In this document: in pieces, positions 25,289 to 42,960 of the stretch | How the letters are laid out: every line of letters begins with the position of its first letter | Position numbering within the stretch: position 1 is the first letter of the stretch | DNA from: Sphaerolaimus hirsutus | Taxonomy: Eukaryota; Nematoda; Chromadorea; Monhysterida; Sphaerolaimidae | Reading direction: 5' to 3' | Length of the DNA stretch: 64,000 nt | Assembly (NCBI GenBank): GCA_964036195.1 | Contig: OZ038457.1 | Location: 25,368,787-25,432,786 of the forward strand | Program-made: the position numbers and the translations under genes | The notes under the pieces: model-generated | Seen by the model: the letters and a program-made list of their open reading frames with translations, nothing else | The model's database searches: none | What the model was told of the DNA's origin: nothing

Positions 25289-26456
25289 ATATACGTCATG
25301 TAGCAAGCAAGCGCAAGATAAAAGAATTAACAAGTGTTGCAACAGTTACACTAACAGCATTGCATTTAGCATTCAAAAAAATCACCAATTGTTTGGAAAA
25401 TATATATAAATATATCACCCCAAACTTGGAAAAAATATAAATATATATAAATCACTCAAGGTCTTTAGAAAATATAATTAAATCACTGAAAAAATAACTC
25501 TAAGCTCAAAAAAATCACAAAAAATCACTTGTGGTTTATTTCAATTACAAGCAAAATTGTGGGCTATTGCGGGCTCAATTTACCATTTGCAAGCACAAAA
25601 ATGTACTCTAACATCCCACAATCTATTTATTATTGTTTCACATGCTGTATTCATTTCATACAATATTGACAAGTGAAAATATCACACAAATATCACAACA
25701 GAAAAATTCAACCTACAACCTCAATGACAACTTCAAAAACATTTTGCACTGCAAACATGTTGCACTGAACCTATAGCGCCTGGTTGTTGCAGTGATGTTT
25801 GACTAAATCAGTGCTTAGTACTTGCAACAGGGCCAGGTATGCCGAGGAAGTTTAGTGCAAATTCACTTACCATATTTCCTCGAAATACCCCCAGGGGGTT
25901 TATTTTTTTTTTCAGAGTGAGAATTTTGAGGGGGTTAAACCAGGGGGGTTATAAATTCATAGTGTCCATTTTGAGGGGGGGTATTTAGAGGAAATGCAGT
26001 AGCTCATGCAATCATCTAGTGTTTTAAAGAGCTACTTTTTCAACAGTGGTGAGCTGTGAAAACTCAGGGCACACAGCTACATGTTTGGCAAAATTTTGGT
26101 GACATTTTGGTGACACCATGGTGACAGTTTTCCACAGTTGTCCCCCATATTTGATAACTGGCAACATTGGTGGATGTTACCAAGTGTTGCCAGCTTTCAA
26201 AAGTGGTGAAGTGAGTTTTCAATTACTGTAGATCATTTTTGATGACATAAAGCAGGTATTTTTGATTCAATGTTATGTTTTATTTCAGTAAAGTATGTTA
26301 TAAGATAGAGAGATGCTTTATACACTAAAACATGACAATACAATTCATAGCAGGATGACATAAGAAGTTACTAAAACAGTTTACATCATTGTCACACACA
26401 TAATGAAGACTAAGTGATGGTGATATCACCATTTGTCATCATTTGAGTTTTCACAT
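25289..26456. repeat. Family T left arm and spacer
   Basis: GCATTTAGCATTCAAAAAAA followed by AAATATATATAAATCAC iterations (25370-25520) is the inverse of 33880-34025. This suggests one element split by the retroelement insertion. A short family A element lies at 25869-26000 (TTACCATATTTCCTCG to GAGGAAATGCAGTA). A TTGGTGACA-iterated tract is at 26070-26200. Confidence 0.55.
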
Positions 26457-26876
26457 TACCATATTTCCTCGAAATACCCCCTGGGGGTGATTGTTTCATA
26501 GTGGTCCCGAGAGGGGGGGGGGGGGTATTTCGAGGGGGGGGGGGTTATTATTTCACAAGAAAAAATTCCAGATCCCAGTACAAAATTGTCGTCTGAAACG
26601 TATGCAGACGTCAAAAAATACAACAAAAACCGCCATTTTTAAGGTTATGTAGACTAATATTAGTATGTAGATGGTATAAACACTGTTCTAACGTGATTAC
26701 AACATTGTTTTAACCTGCGTTCTGCACTACGCAGAACACAAACTGTAGTATTTGTCATGTACGTTCTCTTTAAACTCAATCTGCGGGGGTATTTCAAGGG
26801 GGGGGTGATTGTTTCATAGTGGTCCCGAGAGGGGGGGGTCAAACAAGGGGGGGGGGGTATTTCGAGGAAATACAGT
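26457..26876. mobile_element. Family A TIR element, interrupted at its right end
   Basis: Left end TTACCATATTTCCTCGAAA, right end TATTTCGAGGAAATACAGT. Both termini iterate CCCCCTCGAAATA and its inverse. The centre holds the conserved family core with CACTGTTCTAACGTGATT and TGCACTACGCAGAACAC. The retroelement sits at its right terminus. Confidence 0.85.
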
Positions 26877-27046
26877 AGATATAGAGACTTACTATGGAAA
26901 TTCAACATGAAACTTGATATAACTACACTACAATTAATACGTAAACTGATCGTTGGTAGGTAAATGTATCCTATTCTTACTTTATGTACCCTGAACAGCA
27001 AGTTAACCCACAAATCGGGCGGGTTTTTCAATTTTTGAATGTTGGA

Positions 27047-27077
27047 CGCATAAAAATGCATGCGACCTCATTGCACC
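27047..27077 (+). promoter_or_regulatory. Possible core promoter in the pLTR
   Basis: A TATA-like CATAAAAATGC lies about 25-30 bases before ORF1's first ATG, with a TCATT initiator-like string between. The pLTR is where the promoter of Penelope-like elements is expected. The placement is inference only. Confidence 0.3.
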
Positions 27078-29167
27078 ATGCATTCGATTGGCTCTAAACG
27101 TAAAACGATCAGCGATTCTTCGAGTAAAATGTCCGGCAACGAGTCCACACCTGTCGGCCCCGCCGCTCCAGTAAGTTTAGGTTCTAGTAGGGTAGTACTT
27201 AAGTAGAAGGTGGTCAGTACTGATGAGACCCAACCACCACCCCGGTAAACAACCCCTGTCTACTGTAAAGGGTCGAAACAGGGTACTAGGCTTGGAGGTG
27301 CTGAGGGAGTGCACCATGTGATATTTCCAAGCCTTTTTTGCATACACTTTAATTTACATTTACGCACTTCAAAAATACCATTTCAATTACACAGTAGTGT
27401 ATAGGCGTTCCGGACTGGAGATGACCGTCCGGTACACCTATGCATTGTCTGCTCATCAAGCTAATTTTATTATGTCCCTTTGCTTCACAATTTTGTCGTT
27501 ATTTTTGTCGTCTTTCCGTTCGCAATTCAATTCGGTTAAGGCACCGTAAGGTCCCACGTTAACTCCCTGGTGCCATTTTTCGGATAGGTTGCTATAGGCT
27601 GGACAGTTGCTTGCAACTGAGCCAGTCACCCCCGCTATAGGTCGGGTACCCCCTTGGGGGTGAACCGACTACCACGCAATTTCGTTGGTTTACCAACGAC
27701 TTTCGAATTTTAGATTAAATTATCTATAAAATTTTAATTAACAAAATTTTATTAATCAAACCATTAAATTTCTATTATCTCAAACTACCTAAAATTATCA
27801 ATTTCAACATTAATTATTACCCTTTACGTTACATTATAGTTCCATCACCCAATAAATCTTATCACCTTACACACACAGAAGCGACCGCGCGCGAGTGGCA
27901 CTCGTGTTACGCAAGAACAGCTTGATGCCGTGCGCGCCGCTCAAGAAGCTGATCGGCAAGCCCAGCAAGCCAGACTTGATGCCGTTGAACGAGAACTGGA
28001 AAAGGCGCGCGCCACGCTTCGTGGAGTGCACAGGGATGTTGTTTTTAATGACCTGCGCATCACAAATATTCCGAAAAGTACGTCCTTTGTGCATCTGTAA
28101 TATTTTTGGTGTACATTTACCCCACCATATGCACAACATGGTAAAAAACCTTCCACCTATTTCCATTGACTGATGCTGTATGAATTTCATAAACAGTGGG
28201 TTCTTTGCGCATTTGTAACAGCTCAAAAATACGATCACCCCACCACATGCGCAATACGTTGCCTAAAAACTTTCAACTGGATTTAGCTCAAAGTCAAATA
28301 CATTACCTATGTCATTGTCTTTATTGATTTGAATTTATAGATATCCAGATCACGCTTGTCCCCAATCTTTACAGTTCAAACCAACGGGACTGAACGCGAT
28401 CCTAGGGCCACTTTTCGGATCATTTTGTCAGAAGGGTTAGGATTCGATCCTAACGAAGTGGACAAAATGTGCGAGCCGTCTCGCCTGGCCAGAACGTTTT
28501 GGATAGAGTCCAGAAGTGTGGCGAAGGTAAAATTCTTAAGGATTATTCTTGATCTTTTCTGACACCTGAACATCCTAATATCTACCAGTTTCCAACTTTT
28601 AATATTGGACTATCCTATAGATATTTTTGATATTACAGCCTAATTTCTGGAAAAGGTAAAAATTCCTGAAATATTATATATCCCACTTCCGTGTGCCCTA
28701 AATATTAATTCACCACTGTAATTTACCCACCTTGAAAATATTTTCAATAAATACCTATGTACTTTGATATTTCAGGGTGGCGGTAACAATGGCGGCCTAA
28801 ACCACGTTCTCGTGGTTCGCCTGACTGCTGACGTGGACGTGAAGAATATTTTTGCTAAGAAGGGTCAACCGGGGTTCAAAAATTTCAAACTGGGGAGTGA
28901 CAAGCCGGTGTCGATAAACCGGAATTTCACGGCAGAAGATAGGTGGGATCAAGTTAGTACAAGGGTAATATTGGTATTTACATGGGAATTGGATAGTTTC
29001 TATTCTAAATGTCCTGTTTACACATTTATAATTTATTACCAAAAATGTAAACTTATACTCTTTCACGTAAAATGGTCAACGTATGATCTATTTCGACACT
29101 CGATAAAAATACCTTTCGGTAGGACGTTTTTATCTCAAAAAATTTTTTAACTAGCCTGGGGTCAGGT

Positions 29168-29203
<36 letters not shown>

Positions 29204-29502
29204 ATTGTTTTACAAAATTTACATTACATTGCTTCTTCCTTCATTTTTAGATTCGGTGTCGAGAGGTGGCGCTCGCCCTGTGCCGCAAACGCAACTGGGA
29301 CATGCGCAAGGCCATAAAATTGATGGGCAATAAATTTAAGGCCAATGGCCAAGTGAAATCGTATGTCGATTGGATCAAGGATGAGCAGTTAATCATCGAC
29401 CCGACCAAGATGGGTACTGGGTGGGTCCCCCCGCCCGGCACCATCTTGGCCGTGGCCGGTGGCAATCTGGCCACCCCTGGTCCATCGACAAGTGCTACTT
29501 GA
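27078..29502 (+). CDS. ORF1 of the Penelope-like element, five exons, L1-ORF1-like
   Basis: Proposed join: 27078-27170, 27879-28077, 28341-28526, 28776-28964, 29251-29502 (stop TGA), about 305 residues. All introns are GT-AG and, apart from exon 2/3, phase 0. Exon 1 (MHSIGSKRKT...) is basic and Ser-rich. Exon 2 is a coiled coil (QEQLDAVRAAQEADRQAQQA and onward) ending DLRITNIP. Exon 3 has FRIILSEGLGFDPNEVDKM. Exon 4 has HVLVVRLTADVDVKNIFAKK. Exon 5 is basic and ends in a Pro/Gly tail. This order (coiled coil, a NxxINGIP-like strand, a helix, an R/VxF-like strand) resembles the nucleic-acid-binding ORF1 proteins of L1 elements and FP25-type proteins; that is pattern recognition, not a search result. 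Exon 1 lies in the pLTR and the rest in the body, so the gene belongs to the element. The exon 2/3 junction needs one base removed from the AAAA before the donor. Confidence 0.75.
27171..27878 (+). other. ORF1 intron 1 with ribozyme motif and hairpins
   Basis: Donor GTAAGT at 27171, acceptor CACACACAG ending at 27878. The first 216 bases are within the pLTR and carry the hammerhead motif. 27540-27690 is rich in short hairpins: CAGTTGC-TT-GCAACTG at about 27611-27626, and ACCCCC-TTGG-GGGT near 27650. No coding frame. Confidence 0.7.
27215..27283 (+). ncRNA. Hammerhead ribozyme motif, rearranged strand order (5' pLTR)
   Basis: All core parts match the consensus: CTGATGA (27220-27226), GAAA (27275-27278) and a GTC cleavage triplet (27258-27260). 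Three perfect helices can form. Stem I: CAGTA 27215-27219 with TACTG 27261-27265. Stem II: GACCC 27227-27231 with GGGTC 27270-27274. Stem III: CCCTGT 27254-27259 with ACAGGG 27278-27283. Cleavage would fall after C27260. The cleavage strand lies between the two core strands, inside what would be loop II, so the order is core strand, cleavage strand, GAAA strand. That is not a circular permutation of the usual ribozyme and creates a pseudoknot, with a 22-nt linker and a 4-nt TAAA linker joining the outer ends of stems I and II. Hammerheads in pLTRs are established for Penelope-like elements; this order is unusual. Confidence 0.8.
28078..28340 (+). other. ORF1 intron 2
   Basis: Donor GTACGT at 28078, acceptor TTTATAG at 28340. 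It contains two diverged copies of an 80-bp unit: TTTGTGCATCTGTAA...CACCATATGCACAA and TTTGCGCATTTGTAA...CACCACATGCGCAA. Confidence 0.6.
29169..29201 (+). repeat. Poly-A run of 33 in ORF1 intron 4
   Basis: Uninterrupted A run within the intron between exons 4 and 5 (28965-29250). It could be a simple repeat or the tail of a small inserted retroposon; no element body is recognised upstream. Confidence 0.8.
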
Positions 29503-30239
29503 GTATTTTTATGGAATGATTTTGGGTCGTTTTACAAAAATGGATTTTGATTTAGCGTTTTTATTTTATTTTGTTTTATCATACCGATAAAAAATTTTTT
29601 ACAATAGTTTGATTTTTCTAATTTCATTCGGTAAAAATGCAAGTACAGTGTGATACGATCCTTCCGATAGACTGTAATTTTCGAAAAAATGACTGCTACT
29701 TTCACATTTTTCAAATTGAGATGTTACACCTATTGCGCTCATTCGTTCAAATTTGCGTGGTTATAATTAACGTTTGAAAAATGTGTTTTTAGCACTTGAT
29801 TACAGATACACATACTTTACCTGTGCATTATATATTTCAATTTTCACAATTTTCAATCATTTTGACAATCTGTGTTGTTAAATCCATGGAGTTTTCGCTT
29901 AGAAAATGAATTATGTGTCTGGTGGCCGCTTAGAAAAGCAAAATCTAAATACTACTGGAACATGAACAAGCGACAACGCTCTGCGGGGCGTCAGTTGACA
30001 AGCTACATAATTACAAGCCCTACTTATAAAAACTTTTCCTTCAGCCCTATTTTCTTTTCTTGCTGATTTGCTAAAGCTAGTAAAAGGCATGAACATGCGC
30101 TGACAGAAGCTCCGGGACCGGCTTTTAAGAGGGTAGCGGGGCCAGTCGCTACCTTCGGCATGCCCGGAGTGCTTCTATCAATGGTGGGAGCCCTATTTAG
30201 GGCACCGGCCCGCCGATTAAAAGCCTGACGGCTCAATAG
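29503..30239 (+). other. Inter-ORF region of the retroelement
   Basis: 737 bases between the ORF1 stop and the open RT frame. 30100-30240 is GC-richer and hairpin-prone: CCGGGACCGGC, GTAGCGGGGCCAGTCGCTAC (perfect GTAGCG/CGCTAC arms) and AGGGCACCGGCCC. It may be structured RNA, or hold an unseen exon or internal ribosome entry site; none can be shown from sequence alone. Confidence 0.5.
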
Positions 30240-33101
30240 TACTGGCACCTCTCTTCTACTGCCCCTGGACAGGGCCAGCCAGGGTGCAGAACTTGGCCTG
30301 CTTCAAACTCTTCCAACTCAACTACTCACCATTTTGCCAATCGAGTATGCACTGTGGTAAATGATGGTTCAACCATCTGTGTTACACAAGGAATAAGTTC
30401 TGGTGCGAAAATTGCCACACGTAAATGCGGAAACTGTAAATACTGTGCCTATATAAATGTTAATGTTTTCTGTGATGAAACAAGTACGGGATATAAATAC
30501 TGTACAGAGCAAAAAGTAATTGCCAACTGTGACACTGCTAATGTTGTTTATCTCATTACTTGCTCCTGCTGTAATATACAGTATGTAGGTGAAACTGCAC
30601 GAAAATTAAAACTGCGCATGGGGGAACATGTACGTAGCTTCTCAAAAGGTACTCTACAGACAGAACTAGTGAAACATTTTAAACAAACTTCACACAATCC
30701 AACCTTTAAAATACTTGGAGTGTATGATAAAAATAGTCTACTAACAGCGGAAAAAGAATGGATACTAATTCTCAATTCAGCTTACCCATTTGGACTCAAT
30801 ACAAAGATTCAGGGTTATGGGTCAATTAAAAAGGGAAGTATACCTAAGTTTACTAATAGTCCTTACTTCTGTCGCCCAATTAAAAGGGATCATAGTGATA
30901 GAATACGTAGTAGATGCAAAAGAAAAACTAGATGGTCTATCGATGAAATATGTGATAAAATATTAGCAACAGATGTTGAGGATAATGACTTTACAAAAGT
31001 ATTACTTATGCTTAGACAGTGTAAAAAACAAGAATTAGCAGAAATGCAGAGAAGGATTGGTTATGTACACAGAAGGCTGTGTGATGGCTCAACAGATGTG
31101 GCTATGGCTGTCCTTGGTTTTATTACTAGCAAAGGTGAAATAGATAAACAAAAACCAGTGGATTTGCGAAAGCAACATTACTTTACTTGCTCATTCCCAA
31201 GCGCAACCATGGACTGCATTAGACCTGCAAAATTTTTTAATAGTAAAAAATTCTGTGATAAAATTTCTGCAGATTGGTTGAAATTGAATAAATTTGTGAT
31301 ATGTTTCACTTATGACAAACCCCTATCCTCCATTCTATGTAATCACAACAAAGTTTTTAAGACTATAAAGCCACATGAGTTGAAAAACATGCTGGACTCA
31401 AATTGTAAATGTGCAACTTCTCCTTTTGTCAATACACAGCATGGCCACATAATTACTGGTAACTTAGCTGTGCTGAATGATGTGAAACTGGAATCAGCAT
31501 TACAATTAGGGGCTAAATATCGATATACAGTTGATAAAAGTATTCAAGGATGTAAAACTAAGATTATAGAAGTTCTAGAGAAAATTAGTCAAAAGTTAAA
31601 TTTCCCTATGACAAATGACATCATCAGTGATCTCGATGTTTACATCAACAAACGTACAAAAAATTGGGATGATAACTTTCCTGACACTTTGGACATGTCG
31701 TACATTAGACAGGCATGCATGCGTCTCCATGAAACGTATATTATTGCGCCTGCCGATAAAGCCACAAGTAACTTGATAGTTATGTGTAAAAGATTTGCGG
31801 CTGAGGCAATGTGTAAAGAACTAGGGGTTACATGGCACAATGAAAATATGCAATGCAAAGGAAATGCAACTTATTCACCAGTTACAGAGTCGGAACAGGA
31901 AATAATATCTAAGCATAATAAAATACTGAACAATTTAGACATCCCTATTAAAAATGATTGGCAAAGTCTCCCCAGGCTCTACCCCATACCTAAAATGCAC
32001 AAAAATCCACCAAAGTTCAGATTCATTAGTGGTGGTAGTAAAGCACCTATTAAACCCGCCGCCATAGTACTCCACAGAATTCTAAGACACTTCAAATGGC
32101 ATATGCAAAACTATTGTCTTTCAATGTCAGAAGCTAACGCTACCTGCAACACAGCATACTGGCCATGTGAAGGTTCACTCGAAGTACAGGAGTTTGTTGA
32201 AAATATTTCAAAAGAAAATAAAAAAGTCAGTTGTTACTCTGGTGACTTCTCAACGCTGTATCCAAACATGTGCCACAAAGAAATATTGCGTTGCATCTGT
32301 AAACTGGCAGATCGCTGTTTTTTCAATTCTAAAAAACAGTTCATTGTTATTGGGTGGCAAAATGTCTGGTATAGTGACAAAAAACATGGTAAATTTCTGT
32401 CATTGGACAAAGAAGGGGTAATAAACCTATTGAAAATAGTACTTTCAGAATCCTATCTAGTATTTGCTAACCAACTATTTAGACAGATTTCCGGGCTACC
32501 TATGGGATGTGCATCAGCACCTAGTTTGGCCTGTAGCAGTTTGATGTGGCGTGAAATGGAATGGGTTATGAATAATAGAGATAAACAAAGAAATTTATTT
32601 AAGTGTTTTAGATACATTGATGATCTTCTGATTTGTTATAAAACTGATAGTAATATAGATATAGCTACAATTGTAAAGGAAATTTACCCATCTAATTTAC
32701 CACTAAATAGAACTGACTGTAATGGTGTTTCTACTGACTTCTTGGATATGTCAATTGATTTTTCCAACATGAAATGGAAATTATATGACAAACGGTTAGA
32801 TTTCAACTTTAAATGCATTTCAGCTACAAATTTTAGAAGCGCACAAGCAATGTGTGTGAAAAAGAGCACCTTTTTTGGCCATTGGCTAAGAGCCTTAAGA
32901 TTATGCTCAAACTGGGATGGCTTTGCTAGCAGTATGGCGCCAATTATAAAAGGTCACCTACAAAATGAATATCCTATAAGTACTCTATTTGAAATAGCTG
33001 TAAAATGTAGCAGTAGATATAGAGACTTACTATGGAAATTCAACATGAAACTTGATATAACTACACTACAATTAATACGTAAACTGATCGTTGGTAGGTA
33101 A
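30240..33101 (+). CDS. GIY-YIG endonuclease - reverse transcriptase ORF of the Penelope-like element
   Basis: The frame is open from 30240 to the TAA at 33099-33101, about 953 codons. It has no ATG before the nuclease domain; counting residues from GTG 30354 gives 915. A Cys cluster C25-C28-C31 precedes a GIY-YIG domain: VYL 65-67, QYVGET 76-81, R88, H92, a candidate catalytic Glu at E133 or E135, and GLN 147-149. A linker with HGHIITGNL follows, then RT motifs LYPIPKMHKNPPKFRFISGG, motif A (D631, DFSTLYP), motif B (GLPMGCASAP from 714) and motif C (YIDD 754-757). All catalytic Asp residues are present. The product would nick target DNA and copy element RNA by target-primed reverse transcription. 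Nuclease-before-RT order is the permuted arrangement of Naiad-type elements. A pyrimidine-rich stretch ending CCCCTGGACAG at 30272 could be a phase-0 splice acceptor and would explain the missing start codon. Confidence 0.92.
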   Translation, partial: YWHLSSTAPGQGQPGCRTWPASNSSNSTTHHFANRVCTVVNDGSTICVTQGISSGAKIATRKCGNCKYCAYINVNVFCDETSTGYKYCTEQKVIANCDTANVVYLITCSCCNIQYVGETARKLKLRMGEHVRSFSKGTLQTELVKHFKQTSHNPTFKILGVYDKNSLLTAEKEWILILNSAYPFGLNTKIQGYGSIKKGSIPKFTNSPYFCRPIKRDHSDRIRSRCKRKTRWSIDEICDKILATDVEDNDFTKVLLMLRQCKKQELAEMQRRIGYVHRRLCDGSTDVAMAVLGFITSKGEIDKQKPVDLRKQHYFTCSFPSATMDCIRPAKFFNSKKFCDKISADWLKLNKFVICFTYDKPLSSILCNHNKVFKTIKPHELKNMLDSNCKCATSPFVNTQHGHIITGNLAVLNDVKLESALQLGAKYRYTVDKSIQGCKTKIIEVLEKISQKLNFPMTNDIISDLDVYINKRTKNWDDNFPDTLDMSYIRQACMRLHETYIIAPADKATSNLIVMCKRFAAEAMCKELGVTWHNENMQCKGNATYSPVTESEQEIISKHNKILNNLDIPIKNDWQSLPRLYPIPKMHKNPPKFRFISGGSKAPIKPAAIVLHRILRHFKWHMQNYCLSMSEANATCNTAYWPCEGSLEVQEFVENISKENKKVSCYSGDFSTLYPNMCHKEILRCICKLADRCFFNSKKQFIVIGWQNVWYSDKKHGKFLSLDKEGVINLLKIVLSESYLVFANQLFRQISGLPMGCASAPSLACSSLMWREMEWVMNNRDKQRNLFKCFRYIDDLLICYKTDSNIDIATIVKEIYPSNLPLNRTDCNGVSTDFLDMSIDFSNMKWKLYDKRLDFNFKCISATNFRSAQAMCVKKSTFFGHWLRALRLCSNWDGFASSMAPIIKGHLQNEYPISTLFEIAVKCSSRYRDLLWKFNMKLDITTLQLIRKLIVGR

Positions 33102-33524
33102 ATGTATCCTATTCTTACTTTATGTACCCTGAACAGCAAGTTAACCCACAAATCGGGCGGGTTTTTCAATTTTTGAATGTTGGACGCATAAAAATGCATG
33201 CGACCTCATTGCACCATGCATTCGATTGGCTCTAAACGTAAAACGATCAGCGATTCTTCGAGTAAAATGTCCGGCAACGAGTCCACGCCTGTCGGCCCCG
33301 CCGCTCCAGTAAGTTTAGGTTCTAGTAGGGTAGTACTTAAGTAGAAGGTGGTCAGTACTGATGAGACCCAACCACCACCCCGGTAAACAACCCCTGTCTA
33401 CTGTAAAGGGTCGAAACAGGGTACTAGGCTTGGAGGTGCTGAGGGAGTGCACCATGTGATATTTCCAAGCCTTTTTTGCATACACTTTAATTTACATTTA
33501 CGCACTTCAAAAATACCATTTCAA
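33011..33524 (+). repeat. 3' pseudo-LTR of the Penelope-like element
   Basis: Identical to 26873-27386 except 33287 (G for A, a silent change in ORF1 exon 1). It contains the end of the RT ORF, an orphan copy of exon 1 (33216-33308) and the second hammerhead motif. After it comes AATACAGTGGCAAAC, matching the border on the left side. Confidence 0.92.
33353..33421 (+). ncRNA. Hammerhead ribozyme motif, rearranged order (3' pLTR)
   Basis: Same 69 bases as 27215-27283. The predicted cleavage site is after C33398. The two sites are 6138 bases apart, so cleavage at both would release one unit-length RNA. Confidence 0.78.
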
Positions 33525-34070
33525 ATACAGTGGCAAACTAGTGACTTGCCAAAACAACCCCACTGAAATTCACACTATTTGTGAAAACTGAACATCTACA
33601 ACATTCTATATTGTGGAAAACTGGATGGTGACATGTCACCATTTTTGGCCATTTCAGTTTTCAAAAAAGTCATGGTGAAGACTAGTGTGAGTACAATATT
33701 TACCGATTTAACTAGCACAATATTTACCTGCTTCAAACACTATTTTAACTCAATAATGCTCTACATGAGCAGATGAGAGATTTTCAGGAGAAAATTCTCT
33801 TGCACAAATTACATGTTTTAGTCATGAAGTGCAATACTTGCACCACAATGTATCTAGTATGAGTGATTTTCTCAGTGATTTTTTTTCGAATTTGAAAAAA
33901 AAATATAAATATATCACTCAGAATTTGAAAAAAAATATAAATATATATAAATCACGGGTTATTTATATTTATTGTGATTTTCAAAAATATAAATCACGGG
34001 TTATTTTTTGAATGCTAATTGCATTGCACGCAACAGAATGTAGAAAATATTTGGCTGTCTGACTGTTACC
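33525..34070. repeat. Family T right arm
   Basis: Begins with the TGGTGACA-type tract (33600-33690) and ends with AAATATAAATATATATAAAT iterations and TTTGAATGCTAATTGCATTG, the inverse of 25350-25520. No gene. Confidence 0.55.
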
Positions 34071-34603
34071 TGGTTACAGCACTCAAAATAGGTATACTCG
34101 GCTGACCGCGAAAATAAATAATAAACCCCCCCTCGAAATAACCCCCCCCCCCCCCTAAAATTGAGTGTAAAGAGAACCTACATGACAAATACGGCAGTTT
34201 GTGATCTGTACAATGCAGAACACACGTTAAAACTGATGATTGAGGATGTTAGGGAAGTATCTATGTGTAAATACAGTTATATATGCCTAAAAACACATAT
34301 ACATCTATGTAATTGCTTGATTTTTCTACGTCTGAGTATGCTGAATTTCTGAAAATTTCTGGCGAAAAAAATAGACCCCCCCCCTCGAATAACCCCCCCC
34401 CCCCCTCGAATTATCGAATTATCGAATTATAAAAATGGCACACGATGGTAGAAACAGCCATACAAAAAGTGTGGCAGGCCATGGCGCTTTCGGCGCTTGG
34501 CGCTTTTTTACTGTGGCGCCAGTGGCGCTTGCCGCCACACCTATGAAAAGCGCCAGGGCGCTTTTAGTGCCGGATATTCTCATTTCCTCCTTCATTCCTT
34601 TCC
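34071..34603. repeat. Degraded family A and family E fragments
   Basis: 34110-34425 iterates CCCCCTCGAAATAACC with a short core (TGTACAATGCAGAACACACG). 34470-34570 iterates GGCGCTTTCGGCGCTTGGCGC. Clean ends are not visible for either. Confidence 0.55.
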
Positions 34604-34910
34604 CGTATTTTCTCGAAATACCCCCCCCCCTTGAAATACCCCCCTCAAAATGGACACTATGAATATATAAAACCCCATATATGTTATGTAAGAACAGGGT
34701 TTATACCGTCTGTCTACGTACTTATAAAAGTCTATAGAGTCTCGTACATGGAGGTTTTTATGGCATTTTTCGACGTCTGTGTACGTTACAAACAACGATT
34801 TAGTACTGGGATTTCAAAAAATCGGAATACCCCCCCCATCGTTTAACCCCTTTCAAAATTTCCATTCTGAATAATAACCCCCCCGGGGGGCAATTCAAGG
34901 AAATACGGTA
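34604..34910. mobile_element. Family A TIR element
   Basis: Left end CCCGTATTTTCTCGAAATAC, right end TTCAAGGAAATACGGTA, with the core CGACGTCTGTGTACGTTA between the C-rich arms. Confidence 0.7.
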
Positions 34911-35089
34911 GCCTTAGACAGTTTTTTTTATTTACATGTTGCATGCAATGTTTTTAATTTAAATACCTTGACTTTTACTGCAACTTGATCAATATACCTA
35001 TTTATATCACCTCTGGAAATTATAAATCATCACATTGTTTCCTGGATGTATTTATGTAAGAAATTTATTTTACAGCATTCTATATAACG
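34911..35089. other. Short AT-rich spacer
   Basis: Nothing recognised. Confidence 0.4.
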
Positions 35090-35526
35090 TATTTCCTCGA
35101 ATTACCCCAGGGGGGTTCATTTTTTAAGAGTGGAAATTTTGAGGGGAAATTAAACGAGGGGGGTATTCCGAGGGGGGGGGTATTAATTCGCCAGAAATTT
35201 TTTTAAATTCCAGTACTAAATTGTCGTTTGAAACGTACGCAGACGTCGAAAATTGCAACAAATACCGCTATTTATAAGACTATAGACTTGTAGTGTGAGT
35301 GGATGTAGAGGTATAAACATTGTTCTAGCATAACACAGTCATTGTTTTTAACGTGTGTTCTGCATTGCCCGGATCACAAACCGCAGCTTTTGTCATGTAC
35401 TCTATACACTATGTTTGGGGGGGGGTATTTCGAGGGGGATTATAAATTCATAGTGGCCATTTTGAGGGGGACGGGGGTATTTCGAGACGGGGTATTTCGA
35501 GGGGGGTATTTCGAGGAAATACGGTA
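35090..35526. mobile_element. Family A TIR element
   Basis: Left end AACGTATTTCCTCGAATTAC, right end TATTTCGAGGAAATACGGTA. The core has GAAACGTACGCAGACGTCG and GTTCTGCATTGCCCGGATC. It lies 48 bases beyond the stop codon of the lectin gene and may overlap its 3' end. Confidence 0.8.
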
Positions 35527-35573
35527 GGTACTAAACCTAAGCTCCTTCGATCGAATAAAATTCTTATAAAAAT

Positions 35574-35681
35574 TCATATTTCGTCATAAAACACAAATCC
35601 GATGTCGACCACTTTATTCGAAGTCACGGGGATGTGCGCCGCGCCGCCTTCGCCGTGTTCGAAACGCTGCAGTTTGCAGAT
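35574..35681 (-). CDS. PAN/lectin gene, last exon
   Basis: Acceptor TTTTTTCAG just above 35681; the frame reads ICKLQRFEHGEGG...VVDIGFVFYDEI and stops at TGA (35574-35576). The CKL is the usual last cysteine of a PAN/apple domain whose first part is in the exon at 35746-36246. The intron between them is only 64 bases. It is in phase 0 with that exon. This is the 3' end of the coding sequence. Confidence 0.7.
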   Translation of the reverse strand: MCKLQRFEHGEGGAAHIPVTSNKVVDIGFVFYDEI

Positions 35682-35745
35682 CTGAAAAAATCAAAGTCAA
35701 ATACAGAGCCGCCCACAATCGCAAAACATTGAAATACAAATTGAC

Positions 35746-36246
35746 CTTTGCGTGGGAATTGAAGCTGACGGAGGCGCAGTGGGTGCGCTTGCGGCACAGG
35801 AAGCCGCACGCGTCCAGGGTGGCCACGTCGGGCAGCACGGCCAGCAGGTGGCGCGCCTCCAGCGAGGCATCCGCAGCCGCCGCCTCCCACTGCGGCATGT
35901 ACTTCGGGTTCTCTGAGTGGTCGTTCTCTCTTGGTCTGGGTCAATGCAAGCTCATTCTCAAGGGCGCACCATATTCGCAAAGCGCGTGATCATTCCTTGG
36001 CCCCGAAGAAGTGCGCTTATTCAGGCTGTCCTTGACATAGGAGGCGTCTGCGCTCCAGCAAGCCTTCAGGTAGGTGACTGCATCCACAATATCTGGTTTG
36101 GCTGTCTGCCAAGCGCTGGGCGGCAGGTGATACTCGGTCAGCTTCCCAGCCAGTGGGTACACCCAGTCCCCGTAGTTGTTCGATGAATTCGCCACGCCTT
36201 TTCTATGGCCTTCAACATAAGCACAGGCAGTTTCTCCTGCAAAACC
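35746..36246 (-). CDS. PAN/lectin gene, exon with C-lectin second half and PAN domain; in-frame stop
   Basis: Acceptor CTACTCAG, donor AAG/GTCAAT; 167 codons. It starts GFAGETACAYVEGHRK, continues with GDWVYPLAG and W near PPSAWQTAKPD, and ends its first part with DHALCEYG. These are the second-half landmarks of a C-type lectin domain. Then, in the same frame, SENPKYMPQWEA and LPDVATLDACGFLCRKRTHC begin a PAN/apple domain. Between the two parts a TGA (35941-35943) interrupts the frame. Either the gene ends here in this haplotype, the copy is broken, or there is a base error. GC content and codon use stand out strongly from the surrounding AT-rich DNA. Confidence 0.75.
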
Positions 36247-36325
36247 CTGAGTAGGGTTCGAGGAAAACGTCATATTAGTAAAATGTTTATATTTTGTAGT
36301 CTGACTAGCAAATCTAGCATAGGTA

Positions 36326-36810
36326 TACAGGGTGCGGCAATTTAGACGCCCCCCATAAGTTTTCGAATAACTTGTCACTGGGTGATCGGATCAACGTCAA
36401 ATTTTAGGTCAACATTAATAACTAAATAGGAAAGGATCCCTGAAAATATGGCAGCGATAGCTCCACCCGTTCAGAAGTTTTTCATGCAAACGCGTAATTG
36501 TCACTTTTTCACCACCTAGCTTTACAACCAATGACGCAAATCACGAATTGGTGGCGGGCGTGCACGCATTTAGGCAGGCCGCTGCGAAAAGAAAATCAGA
36601 AAAAAACCCTGAAAAACCCGTTTGAACGATATCACAAGGTGGTGGAAAAGTGACAATCACGCGTTTGCATGAATAACTGGTGAACGAATGGAGCTATCGT
36701 TGCCATATTTTCAGGGATCCTTTCCTATTTAGTTATTAATGTTGACCTAAAATTTGACGTTAATCCGACAACTCTGTGATAAGTTATTCGAAAACATATG
36801 GGGGCACTCG
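36326..36810. mobile_element. Family K Tc1/mariner-like MITE, copy 1
   Basis: Starts TACAGGGTGCGGCAATTTAG and folds back on itself around 36550 (AACGCGTAATTGTCAC and its inverse). The right end is decayed near GGGGGCACTCGAA. It lies in the lectin gene intron. Related copies are at 50845-51438 and 56457-58292. Confidence 0.75.
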
Positions 36811-37317
36811 AAACGATCTTCACACTTTATTAATTTCATTTTCTGACAATTGAGAATGAAATCTGTGGGTATACTAGGCGGACCGCAAAGTATGCGCCCA
36901 AAATTATTTATGTCTTGATCGATAACGCGCGAGCTGGATACTTATGTACGCACTTTCACAAACAAAAAATCTTTTAAAAAGAGAGAGGCGGAGCCAGGGG
37001 TTCAAAAGGGGGGGTTGGGAGGCCGTTGGGATATTTTTAAAAAGAAAAAGGCGGAATGTGGGAATGTTTTTTCCCGTCATGTTTTTCTTTTTTTGTTGGA
37101 ATTATTTTTATTTAATTAATGATGACGTCATGATAGAGCGTTTCCTTCAGAAAAATGCATAGCGTGCGGTCCGCCGAGTATACACATTACATAAATATTC
37201 TACGAGTTATTCTTGTTTCCTTAAAACATACCATTCAGATCACACTCAGGAAATAATGAGACTATTCAAGAGGAGCATTATTTCCCGCACCCGGCTAGCA
37301 GGGGGAACGATTCAAGG
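36811..37317. other. Lectin-gene intron, spacer
   Basis: Includes GTATACTAGGCGGACCGC near 36870, returning inverted near 37165 (GCGGTCCGCCGAGTATACAC). This suggests a further small foldback element of about 310 bp. Confidence 0.5.
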
Positions 37318-37806
37318 CAGAGTTGTGAAAAGTACCGGACTTTAGTCAAAGTATGCGTATGCATGAAGTACCATTTTGTGTTGTTACTCACCCCTCGAGT
37401 ACAGAAACCCTAAAGTGAAAAGTTTTTACTTGTACTCGTGAGTAAATGAGAGTAAAATACTTTTTTCTCAGAAAGCGTAAATGCAAAAAAAATTTCTCAG
37501 TAAAGCATAAAATAGGGTAAAATTACCTTTTCTTTCTGCAAAATGTAGAAGGTAGGTAGCATTATATTTATGAATGTTTACCCTGGATAGCAAAAAGGTG
37601 TTTTCTTCTACTGATAAGTATTCTTTATGAAAAGCAAGGGTCTTAAATGGCAAAAATTACTCTACTGTACTTGATTAGGTACTCTGAAAAAGTAAGCATA
37701 CAGGCGAGTACAGATACTTTTTCCATATTTTCTGTATTATGCATATTTACTCTGTACTCGAGTATGCGTACTTTTGAGTAAAAGTAAATGTGCATTAATA
37801 ACTGTG
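37318..37806. mobile_element. Family I hAT-type element
   Basis: Starts CAGAGTTGTGAAAAGTAC, ends TTAATAACTGTG, with perfect 8-bp duplications ATTCAAGG (37310-37317 and 37807-37814). It iterates GAGTAAA/TACTCGAGTA. No transposase. Confidence 0.88.
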
Positions 37807-37918
37807 ATTCAAGGGAGGGAACTACATAGTTGATGTTTTTACAGTACACAAATATTTTGTGCGTTTCCCAAACATATTGACAAGTTTGCATTACCTAAAC
37901 ATGTCGGTTGGAAATGAG

Positions 37919-38358
37919 TACCGTATTACCTAGAATTAACCCCCCCCCCCTTGAATTAACCCCCCCTCGAATAACCCCCCCCCCCCCTCAAAATGGGCTG
38001 GGGAAATAATAAACCCCCCCTCGAAATCCCCCCCCCCAAATACAGTGTAAACAGCGTGTACACAACAAATACCACAATGTGTGAACTGTATTATGCAGAA
38101 CACACGTTAAAACCGATGACTGAGTGACGTTAGGGAAGGGTTTATGTGTATATATACTTGTATATGCCTATAAACACTCATACGTCTCTGACAATGTTGT
38201 ATTTTTCTATGTCTGAGTATGGGAAATTTCGTAAAATTTCTGGCGAAATAATAGACCCCTCACCCCCCCGAATAACCCCCCCCCTCAAATTAACCCCCCC
38301 TCAAAATTTGCTGGCGAAAAAATAAACCCCCATGGGGGTATTTCAAGGTAATACAGTA
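37919..38358. mobile_element. Family A TIR element abutting a lectin exon
   Basis: Left end TACCGTATTACCTAGAATTA, right end TTTCAAGGTAATACAGTA. The right terminus touches the lectin exon at 38360, so the exon's splice donor (GTACTG on the minus strand) lies in the element terminus. Confidence 0.8.
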
Positions 38359-38359
38359 C

Positions 38360-38601
38360 GTTCAGGAAAGAGCGCAAAGCGAAGTGCACCTTGACGTGGA
38401 GGGCGTGCAGCATGGTGCTGGACCTGAGCAGGGCCAGCCGCCCCTCCATCCCATGCAGCCGCCCCTTCGCCGCGCACTTGGCCTTGGCTTCTTCGTAGGT
38501 GTTCGTCCACTTCATCAGCACATAGCAATTGCCACGGTAATGAGCCACGGCCACAGACTCCGCGTCCAGACCGACTTTGCTGTTGCATTCTGCTTGGAAA
38601 T
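38360..38601 (-). CDS. PAN/lectin gene, C-type lectin first-half exon (copy a)
   Basis: Acceptor CGAGCGCAG, donor AAC/GTACTG; 242 bases. Translation: FQAECNSKVGLDAESVAVAH, RGNCYVLMKWTNTYEEAKAK, CAAKGRLHGMEGRLALLRSS, then FALRSFLN. GNCYVL, the YEEAKAKC helix and GRLALL are the opening landmarks of a C-type lectin fold. It joins in phase 0 to the exon at 36246. A second copy of this exon is at 43312-43450, cut by a gap. Confidence 0.82.
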
Positions 38602-38740
38602 CTGCGCTCGGAGTTGACAATGTCTACATAATATTTAAAAAATACGGTCGACAAAATTGCTCATTGTTCACGTTTACCAGACTCAGAGTATCCGAGTTCA
38701 CAAAGCACAAATACAGACAAATCCAAACAAAACAACCTAC

Positions 38741-39586
38741 CAGAGTTGTGCAAATACTGGTATTTTTGGAAAACGTAAACGTAAACGTAAATACCTTTTC
38801 CAAATCAAAAGTATAAATACTAAAACGTAAGTTATAATACCAAGGAATGCGTAAAAAAAACATAAACGTAAAAATTTTACCCACAGTATTTGCCATTGTG
38901 CTTTTGAAAATACCATTATTTTCATTATTATCCAACTACGCTGGTGATTCTGGGGGAGTCCCACACCCTGTAAAATGCTTTGTAAAATGTCAATGGCATT
39001 CAAAGTGTCTAAAGTCATGCAAAATGCCCTGGAAGGTGGCAAATCTTTGCCATTTTGCTGGGCATTTTACATGAGTTTTGACATTTGCATGAAATTTTAC
39101 ATTTTACAGGGCATCTTTCAGAGTCTGGGATTGCACTCGCCCTGCCAATTTCAAAACGTGTGCTACTCACAGTTGTTGCAAGTGGCACCCGCGGAATTCA
39201 TCACAAAAAAATTATAAACGCAATGCTCCACAAACAAACAAGAAAGTTTCTGTCTTCAGCATTTGAACACATTTATGAAAATGTACCCAGTAGTCCATGT
39301 GTATTTAAGTGCACGCGTGCAGTCACTTTTTTCATAATGCATTTTTGAATGTATACATGTTACGTTTATGCAAAAACATAAACATTGTTGGCTGCAGGTG
39401 GTGCGGCTCATTTGACCATGTGCACGTGTGAAGTTTTTTTACGTTTTCCTTAGTACCCAGGTATTTTGGTCAGGACAACGTAACAAAACGTAATGGTATT
39501 TTTAGAAAACGTAAACGCAAACGTAAATATAAATACCCAAATAACCGGGTATTTCGGGTAAACATAAATACGTTTTTCCAACTCTG
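38741..39586. mobile_element. Family I hAT-type element in lectin intron
   Basis: Left end CAGAGTTGTGCAAATACTGG, right end CCAACTCTG; flanks CAACCTAC and CAACCTAA match at 7 of 8 positions. It iterates AAACGTAAACGTAAACG. A family C element lies inside at about 38945-39145. It is absent from the corresponding 159-bp intron of copy b (43451-43609). Confidence 0.82.
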
Positions 39587-39591
39587 CAACC

Positions 39592-39909
39592 TAAACACCT
39601 TCCCGGTCACGTCCGGCAGCCATTTTTTGATTTTACTTCTTATATTCTATCCCCAGTTCTAGGGCGCCCCCGAGGCTGAAACGTGGGGGAGATATTGGCG
39701 CAACCCCCCTCTACTTCGCATGAATTGGGGGGGTCGCGGCGACCCACCCTGAGAGGAGTCGCCGCGACCCCCCCAATTCATGCGAAGTAGAGGGGGGTTG
39801 CGCCAATATCTCCCCCAAGTTTCAGCTTCATAGGCGCCGTAGAACTGGGGATAGAATGTAAGAAGTAAAATCAAAAAATGGCTGCCGGACGTGACCGGGA
39901 AGGTGTTTA
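39592..39909. mobile_element. Family P small perfect palindrome
   Basis: TAAACACCTTCCCGGTCACG at the left returns as its complement at the right. The arms are about 150 bp and nearly identical, including GGCGCAACCCCCCTCTACTT and its inverse. The ends match the 1654-bp element at 22970-24623. Confidence 0.88.
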
Positions 39910-39932
39910 CAACACCAAAAATGCAAACGAAC

Positions 39933-40092
39933 CATCGACGAGTGGTCTGACATAGAAGTTGACGCCTTGGGCGTGCTGCAGGGGCGTGCGCTTCATGTCG
40001 GCGGCCATCTGCGGCAGGATCTCGCAGTCGCCCGACGCCGTGCCGTGCGTGAACGCCAGGCACCTGGCGCACTCCCAGACACTGGAATTGCC
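39933..40092 (-). CDS. PAN/lectin gene, PAN second-half exon (copy a)
   Basis: Donor GATG/GTTCGT, phase 1, joining the lectin exon at 38601. Translation: VWECARCLAFTHGTASGDCE, ILPQMAADMK, QHAQGVNFYVRPLVD. RCLAFTH and DCEIL are the late cysteines of a PAN/apple domain. The start is uncertain: acceptor TTTTCCAG gives 40092, or ATTCCAG gives 40081. The latter matches the phase of the exon at 46178. The sequence at the acceptor belongs to a family C element. Nearly identical to 43610-43769. Confidence 0.78.
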
Positions 40093-40660
40093 CTGGAAAA
40101 TGTCAAATGTCATGCAAAGTGTCAAAAGTCATGGAAAATATACCCTCAATTTTCGAGTAAGACGCCAACCGGGTTAATTTTTCGTCAGGTTTTTTTTTGA
40201 GGAAGGAGTTATTCAAGGCGGGAGTGATTCGAGGGGGGACTTTTTTTTCCTCAGAAAACTTAGACTTAATCATTTATTGTATTGATGCAGTCTGTCAACT
40301 CATGTAATTCGTGTATTTTACTGTAACAACAGAAAGATGTGTATACACTGCATACACATCATGTATCTGCTGTCGCTGTCGTAGGCTAATATTGTTTTGT
40401 ATTCTTGTGTTGTATCCTTTTCATCCAGAGGGTGGAGTTATTCAAGGGGGGGGGGTCGAGGAGGGGGTTATTTTTTCCTCACCTCGTTAAATAGAGGGAG
40501 TTATTCAACGGGGGGTCTTATTTGAGGATTTACGGTAGTGAAAAATGTCAAACGCCCAGTAAAAATAATAAAATTTGGATTTTTACATGACTTTTGATAC
40601 TGATACAGCGCATTCTACATGATTTTTGGCACTATGTATGACATTTGACTAGCGATTGAA
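40093..40660. repeat. Family C end and a family A-like element
   Basis: 40093-40145 is family C sequence (CATGCAAAGTGTCAAAAGTC). 40180-40540 iterates GAGTTATTCAAGGCGGGAG and ends GATTTACGGTA. It is the counterpart of 43772-44048 plus 45776-45915, with the family E element missing. Confidence 0.65.
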
Positions 40661-41160: not shown

Positions 41161-42960
41161 TTGCCAACTTACTCCAAAATCCTTTAAAAAACACTGGATG
41201 GATGGGTTAATGTAAAATTAAGAGTGTACATGCAGTATTTTATGCTGCATGTACTGATGGGGTTGTAGAAAACTTGGGATGCATATAAAATAAAATAATT
41301 TTTTTTTAAAAAAACGTCACTGTGGCGACGTTTCAGGTGACAACTGTATATGTCACCTGTTTCCATAAGTTATTACCAATCTTGAAAAGTACTTATAACA
41401 TGACAGAATTCATAAATTTATCAACAACACCGAATCTGGGACTTGGTACTACTGTTAATTAAATCAATCTTTCTGAAATTTGTGTGTACCATGCAATTGT
41501 TAGTCATGATCTTGCATTAAAATATAAATATATATATAATTTTTCATTTCATTAATTGATAAATATTTGTGAAAGTGATTTATACATGCAGTTAGGTTGG
41601 CACTCTGTACAATGGGCTAAATGAAATTTCAGATGCAAATCACAGGGATGAAATTCAAGATGCCATCACAGAGAAAATGAAAGACTGGTTTTGATGTACT
41701 CATGGCAAACTTAGATACTGCTCAATTGCCAGTCATTGGTGAATTAATCCAGTATGACCAACTGCTTGCACAATCTTTGAGTCAATACCAGCATCAACAC
41801 TCCAAGGTGACCAAACAACTAAACAGTATCTGGCTAGCTGCCAAACCTGATTTTATGCATATAACATATGTCTTATTTTGTGCACTTTCACCTTGCATCA
41901 CATTTACTAAGCTGAGTTTTCCTGAGCACTGCTTGGCTCAGCTGGACTGGAGTTTTTGGAGTTTTTGCTGCAGGCTGGAGTGTTGTAATGGCCTCCACTG
42001 GGTGCTTGGCAGTTAATTTATACCCTTTGCACTGACACTTGGAAGTTGTGCACATACAGTAAATAATTTTGAAAAAATCTCTGGAAACATAAAAAGACTA
42101 TGTGATTTTTCCAAGCCTTTTTTTGCATCTTTACATTTCTTTTTCAAGACTTTCACTCAATTCCTCAATTCCATGGATAGATCCAGATAACTTTTGAGTT
42201 TTCAAAAAGGTTCATGTTTATGTTAAATTTTGTGACAGATCGTAATATTAAATGAAAACATTTCTGAAAACAATACAATAAAATTGTTTTTATTTTTTTT
42301 GTGCTAGTGTATTGAATGTGACATTGTCTCAGTCAGTGTTCACTTGTTGTTCATTTTTTTGGCTTTCATTTACATACAAAATCAGCTGTTTCAATTGCAC
42401 TTGTGATTTTTAAAAAAATTATAAAGTGGATTGTATAAAAATATCATTACTTGTTTTGCAGAAATGTTATTGAATTCAGTTTTTTTTTGTTTGATGTGAA
42501 AAAATAAGGGCTTTTTACTGTGATAATGCAATAATTACAGATACACAGATGTAATTTTAAAAAATTATTTAATGTTTTAAGCATAACCACAATTTCTTCA
42601 TCATCTTTGAACTTCTATTGTGAAACATGGTATCACATGAAAGAGAAAAAAAAACTGGATATATATCTGAGACGGATATCATATACAATGTAAAACTGAA
42701 TTTTTAAAAATATTTATAGTTAGAAAACGAATTAATTTTTAAAAATATGTATAACAGTGCTAAAAATATACAATACAGTCCCAAAAATCAAGCATAATTT
42801 TCTGCATCACATGCCGCTTACAGCTTGTCCTACAAATTCGTACTTATTCAACAAAAAAATATTTTGTCTGCAGCATTTTACCAGAGTTTTCAAATATGTG
42901 TTCTTCCGGAGGAAAAATAGAAAAAAAACAAAGATGGCGGCCATTTGGCTCATTACACAG
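41161..42960. other. AT-rich stretch, nothing recognised
   Basis: 1.8 kb of AT-rich sequence. The longest frame (41702-42016, 104 codons, plus strand) contains two short hydrophobic stretches but no recognisable domain, and its composition matches its surroundings. No splice-bounded exon is convincing. Confidence 0.4.

Follow-up and report, generated by a model that had tools for sequence, protein, structure and literature searches.

We analysed a window of 64,000 nucleotides (nt) from the nematode Sphaerolaimus hirsutus (contig OZ038457.1), whose forward strand contains what is, by its coding content, a Penelope-like retroelement with a GIY-YIG endonuclease ahead of the reverse transcriptase (RT), as in the Naiad-like clade. 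The element is bounded by two pseudo-long terminal repeats (pseudo-LTRs), a 5′ copy at 26873–27386 that includes the last 29 codons of the open reading frame 2 (ORF2) sequence and a 3′ copy at 33011–33524. These differ at a single position in 514 nt, which lies outside the motif described here, and the insertion is taken to be young because they differ so little. Each repeat carries an identical 75-nt motif, at 27209–27283 and at 33347–33421 (offset +6138), that a base-by-base check places in the type CSG hammerhead ribozymes, with predicted cuts at C27260/T27261 and C33398/T33399. A sequence-only reading of the window had reported a hammerhead core (CTGATGA, GAAA and GTC) with three perfect helices in the pseudo-LTR. 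The direct repeat and the base check bear out that location, the core and the three helices; a fourth helix and the second copy had been overlooked.

From 5′ to 3′, the upstream motif comprises the 5′ strand of a clamp helix that forms a stem I–II interaction (GGTGGT, 27209–27214, pairing with 27233–27238), the 5′ strand of stem I (CAGTA, 27215–27219), the core CTGATGA (block C, 27220–27226), the 5′ strand of stem II (GACCC, 27227–27231), the 3′ strand of the clamp (ACCACC, 27233–27238), a strand of stem III (CCCTG, 27254–27258) followed by the cleavage-site U-C (27259–27260; together block S, 27254–27260), the 3′ strand of stem I (TACTG, 27261–27265), a TAAA linker between stems I and II (27266–27269) and block G (27270–27283), which holds stem II GGGTC (27270–27274), GAAA (27275–27278) and stem III CAGGG (27279–27283). 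All pairs in the four helices are Watson-Crick, over 5 base pairs (bp) in stem I, 5 bp in stem II, 5+1 bp in stem III with the core A-U pair and 6 bp in the clamp. The clamp lies flush with stem I and one base (A) off stem II, and a 15-nt spacer separates it from the stem III strand. The blocks at 27215–27283 are arranged as core strand, cleavage strand and GAAA strand (C, S, G).

The strongest evidence for the ribozyme comes from an independent relative that was found by its protein alone. With a 48-amino-acid (aa) stretch of the RT as query, the genome contigs yielded a sole relative, L121 (5336 bases, JAITMD010000012.1), filed in a Flavobacteriaceae metagenome-assembled genome (MAG) and evidently a eukaryotic contaminant there, because it encodes a Penelope-type protein and an intron-like ORF1. 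Its ends overlap by 119 nt, the k in the contig name (k119), as expected from tandem copies, and its ORF2 is 27.8% identical to that of the window over 878 columns (29% in a second alignment). A hammerhead descriptor scan of both L121 strands gave one match, in CSG order at 531–607, with clamp CTCTCTAC/GTAGAGAG, stem I GTCAA/TTGAC, core CTGACGA, stem II GACCCC/GGGGTC, linker ACA, GAAA and stem III CGGCTTAC/GTAAG-A-CCG; the cut is expected after A581, and the helices measure 5 bp (stem I), 6 bp (stem II), 8 bp (stem III) and 8 bp (clamp). CUGANGA, GAAA, the U-H cleavage site and the core A-U pair are intact in both elements.

Because MAFFT alignments of the motif leave the clamp and stem III out of register, pairs were compared by script outward from the core, between these two elements only. 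None of the 21 pairs compared is broken: all are Watson-Crick in the window element and in L121, and 13 have changed on both sides: six of six in the clamp, four of five in stem I and three of five in stem III, against none of the five in stem II, which is identical over the pairs compared. The four helices are therefore kept in the one homologue that was checked, with covariation in the clamp and in stems I and III, and the non-circular, pseudoknotted strand order put forward by the sequence-only reading agrees both with the block order and with this one independent element. Rfam found no canonical hammerhead (types I–III): none matched at gathering scores in the window, and the hammerhead families were absent up to E 5 from 26800–33700 and from L121. 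The matches that did appear below gathering scores, Trp_leader in the 26800–33700 scan and mir-1422 and SNORD46 in the L121 scan, were taken as chance. Judged by architecture and covariation, 27209–27283 is a genuine hammerhead of non-circular strand order, conserved between the two elements and belonging to a known, though very rare, type.

A scan of both strands of the window for all six block orders matched the two copies alone, even with helices as short as 3-3-3 bp, and a looser scan that tolerated G-U pairs and one failed pair in stems I and III returned the same two. Chance was modelled with 2000 order-2 Markov simulations of the window (256 megabases, both strands), in which 3-3-3 bp helices gave 20 matches, three of them in CSG order, and 5-5-5 bp helices gave none in any order. 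Viral contigs contain the core letters in CSG order at no fewer than 120 loci, and stems I and II each reach 5 bp in 0 of the 120 examined; the best of those 120, L019, reaches 5 and 4 bp when G-U pairs are counted and was taken as chance. A stricter DNA pattern found 14 viral loci; stems I and III both reach 3 bp in 0 of these, and the window motif's own letters had no match in these contigs. A chance origin of the motif is very unlikely on these counts, and we give almost no credence to an accidental assembly of short motifs. In its favour, the motif does not vary between the two window copies, which are too alike to reveal selection, and the fourth helix was noticed after the fact, so that its chance of occurrence (0.0012 if it must lie 0–1 nt from both stems, 0.011 if any position up to 12 nt away on each side is allowed) was computed post hoc. 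Against it, none of the 2000 simulated windows held 4-4-4 bp helices in any order, and L121 already contradicts it, with an independent motif that covaries and stands at the corresponding place.

That the motif is a hammerhead relic, decayed or no longer active, is also highly improbable, since neither the window element nor L121 shows a core deviation or a broken pair and the pseudo-LTRs are nearly identical. Somewhat more weight, but still little, goes to the idea that the fold is conserved mainly as a structure recognized by the element's protein or as a regulator of intron 1 splicing, with cleavage weak or incidental. The two type CSG rates reported in vitro are slow, at 0.004 and 0.026 per min (PMC10085705); the canonical element PAc inserts in vitro without needing hammerhead cutting (PMC11167929). 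Both cut sites, moreover, survive in the present insertion. The catalytic positions, including U-H and GAAA, nevertheless stay intact in the two elements even though helix letters differ, which points to more than a binding structure, as such a structure would not need them.

We consider it highly probable that a type CSG hammerhead, expected to cut itself, is present in each pseudo-LTR of a Penelope-like element that inserted recently and in which GIY-YIG precedes the RT. Besides the identical copies and the results for PAc, which include that no RNA ends were seen at its cut site (PMC11167929), several observations weigh against this. Competing folds are predicted: a pseudoknot-free fold of the window motif reaches −19.8 kcal/mol, compared with −27.1 kcal/mol summed over the four bare helices without loop cost, and the competition is strongest in L121, where such a fold reaches −32.2 kcal/mol against −23.9 kcal/mol for three of its helices. 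Stem III of L121 needs one bulged A, L121 is the one informative relative, and its GIY-YIG domain has no Pfam match up to E 1, so that this assignment comes from alignment with the window ORF2. Finally, the insertion retains both cut sites and extends 126 nt beyond the second, which means that, unless a circular template was used, cutting did not come before copying here.

The 953-aa ORF2 frame occupies 30240–33101. GIY-YIG at aa 102–176 exceeds the Pfam cut-off, RVT_1 at aa 735–808 (E 0.0012) falls below it, and the endonuclease thus precedes the RT. A profile built from the proteins of the two elements matched a maturase RT in the PDB (E 0.0058), RT motifs YIDD/YVDD are visible in the ORF2 alignment of the window and L121, and a CxC motif lies between GIY-YIG and RT in both (CKC and CIC). 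A phmmer search of the PDB with ORF2 gave nothing useful, and an ORF2 structure model made without an alignment had a mean predicted local distance difference test score of 34.6. A pseudo-LTR or tandem arrangement is present in each element, as the 514-nt repeat of the window and the overlapping ends of L121. The ribozyme begins 246 nt after the ORF2 stop in the window and 297 nt after it in L121. A candidate target-site duplication, AAATACAGT, lies at 26868–26876, where it overlaps the start of the repeat by CAGT, and again at 33523–33531.

The reading frame and a splice signal predict a first ORF1 exon of 31 codons at 27078–27170 followed by a GTAAGT donor at 27171, 38 nt before the ribozyme; in L121 the ribozyme likewise starts 40 nt after a GTAAGT, a predicted donor that follows a short ATG exon. 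The earlier placement of the motif in an intron of a retroelement gene is in keeping with these frames and signals, and the intron is a prediction to that extent. The region 27078–29501 resembles a multi-exon ORF1 ahead of the RT frame, with a predicted coiled-coil-like exon 2; none of its exon peptides matched above Pfam cut-offs, and joining exons 2 and 3 in the simplest way breaks the frame. Directly 3′ of the ribozyme, a strong hairpin at 27288–27343 (AGGCTTGGA...TCCAAGCCT) precedes a T-run and could be a site for the element's RT. A 47-nt segment at 42097–42143 is 80% like the 3′ part of this hairpin and the bases that follow it. G-run/C-run repeat families in both orientations (GGGGGTATTTCGAGGAAATACAGTA and its complement) occupy 25860–26880 and 34100–40550, and the left end of the retroelement falls inside one of them.

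These features suggest how the ribozyme might serve the element. Self-cleavage, inferred from sequence, after C27260 and C33398 would release a 6138-nt unit from transcripts spanning both sites. Spliced mRNA would escape the cut, as predicted intron 1 contains the motif a short way 3′ of ORF1 exon 1. The inserted copy still contains the predicted introns, which suggests that unspliced RNA is the template; this RNA would retain the ribozyme, be cut to length and perhaps close to a circle, and a circle copied a little beyond one full lap would produce pseudo-LTRs. Given the overrun past the second site, copying may have begun while slow cutting was still incomplete, or the cut unit may have been circularized and copied just over one lap. 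As a general account, it is possible, although we hold it tentatively and at somewhat less than an even chance, that type CSG is the standard ribozyme of Penelope elements with an N-terminal endonuclease, that intron 1 spares their mRNA and that a cut, circular template gives rise to their pseudo-LTRs; on this account, the clade was thought to be free of hammerheads because searches used canonical orders.

Searches for further relatives returned nothing from viral contigs (queries P0001 and P0002, 49-aa and 48-aa stretches and alignment A1), from phages or genome contigs with P0001, or from plasmids with P0002. Among genomes of the family of the MAG that holds L121, A1 matched 1 of 397, its own genome, which was also the single match at E 1e-8 among 395 genomes of its order and among 395 of its class. 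At E 0.001, 18 of 395 genomes of the phylum matched, namely its own, G714 and 16 with RT-core matches (E 6.5e-6 to 9.7e-4); the latter were taken for bacterial RTs. In the bacterial genome G714, the match lies on a short contig (L140) where RT stands before GIY-YIG, the order of a canonical Penelope element, and it is read as a contaminant of that kind. Behind this RT/GIY-YIG, at 2657–2720, L140 has a CTGACGA...GGTCGAAA stretch in the usual hammerhead order, without an Rfam match.

The ribozyme type is already known, and the new part is its home in Penelope-like elements together with its predicted intronic place. This gives type CSG a biological setting, covariation from an independent element and a probable function, and the ribozyme's presence would explain why a large Penelope clade reportedly appeared to have no hammerheads. 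The four-helix descriptor can be used to scan any invertebrate genome, and the intron placement leads to a testable prediction on mRNA versus template RNA.

The remark in the sequence-only reading that non-circular hammerhead permutations had been published proved correct: Eckert et al. 2023 defined six hammerhead block orders, of which the present one is type CSG (PMC10085705). In the parts of that paper drawn on here, type CSG consists of two similar sequences, CSG-1 and CSG-2, each cleaving in vitro where expected; a helix draws their stems I and II together, covariation is modest and no role is assigned to them (PMC10085705); the earlier geometric argument, in which the TAAA linker bridges stems I and II, fits this description. 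The window motif shares with CSG-1 and CSG-2, as described there, the C-S-G order, the conserved core, three stems and the stem I–II clamp helix, and at 75 nt it is close in size to their constructs of 77–78 nt with flanks. Unlike them, as far as that description goes, it sits in a pseudo-LTR and a predicted first intron of a retroelement, a comparison of architecture and setting rather than of letters. For PAc, reverse transcription is reported to start at an internal template site (PMC11167929). Among the open-licence PMC papers listed in our searches, none showed a link between a rearranged hammerhead and Penelope-like elements that have an N-terminal endonuclease.

Canonical Penelope-like hammerheads are reported to be small and of type I (C-G-S). 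The window motif resembles them in lying in a pseudo-LTR near the coding start and in an element that ends shortly past the cut site, and it differs from them in its C-S-G order and its predicted intronic position. Penelope-like elements with an N-terminal endonuclease (Naiad/Chlamys) are said, in work by Craig et al. 2021, to be without canonical hammerhead motifs. Judged by layout rather than by phylogeny, the window element resembles Naiad/Chlamys in having GIY-YIG before RT, a CxC motif between them and pseudo-LTRs; unlike Naiad/Chlamys so described, both it and L121 carry a non-canonical hammerhead.
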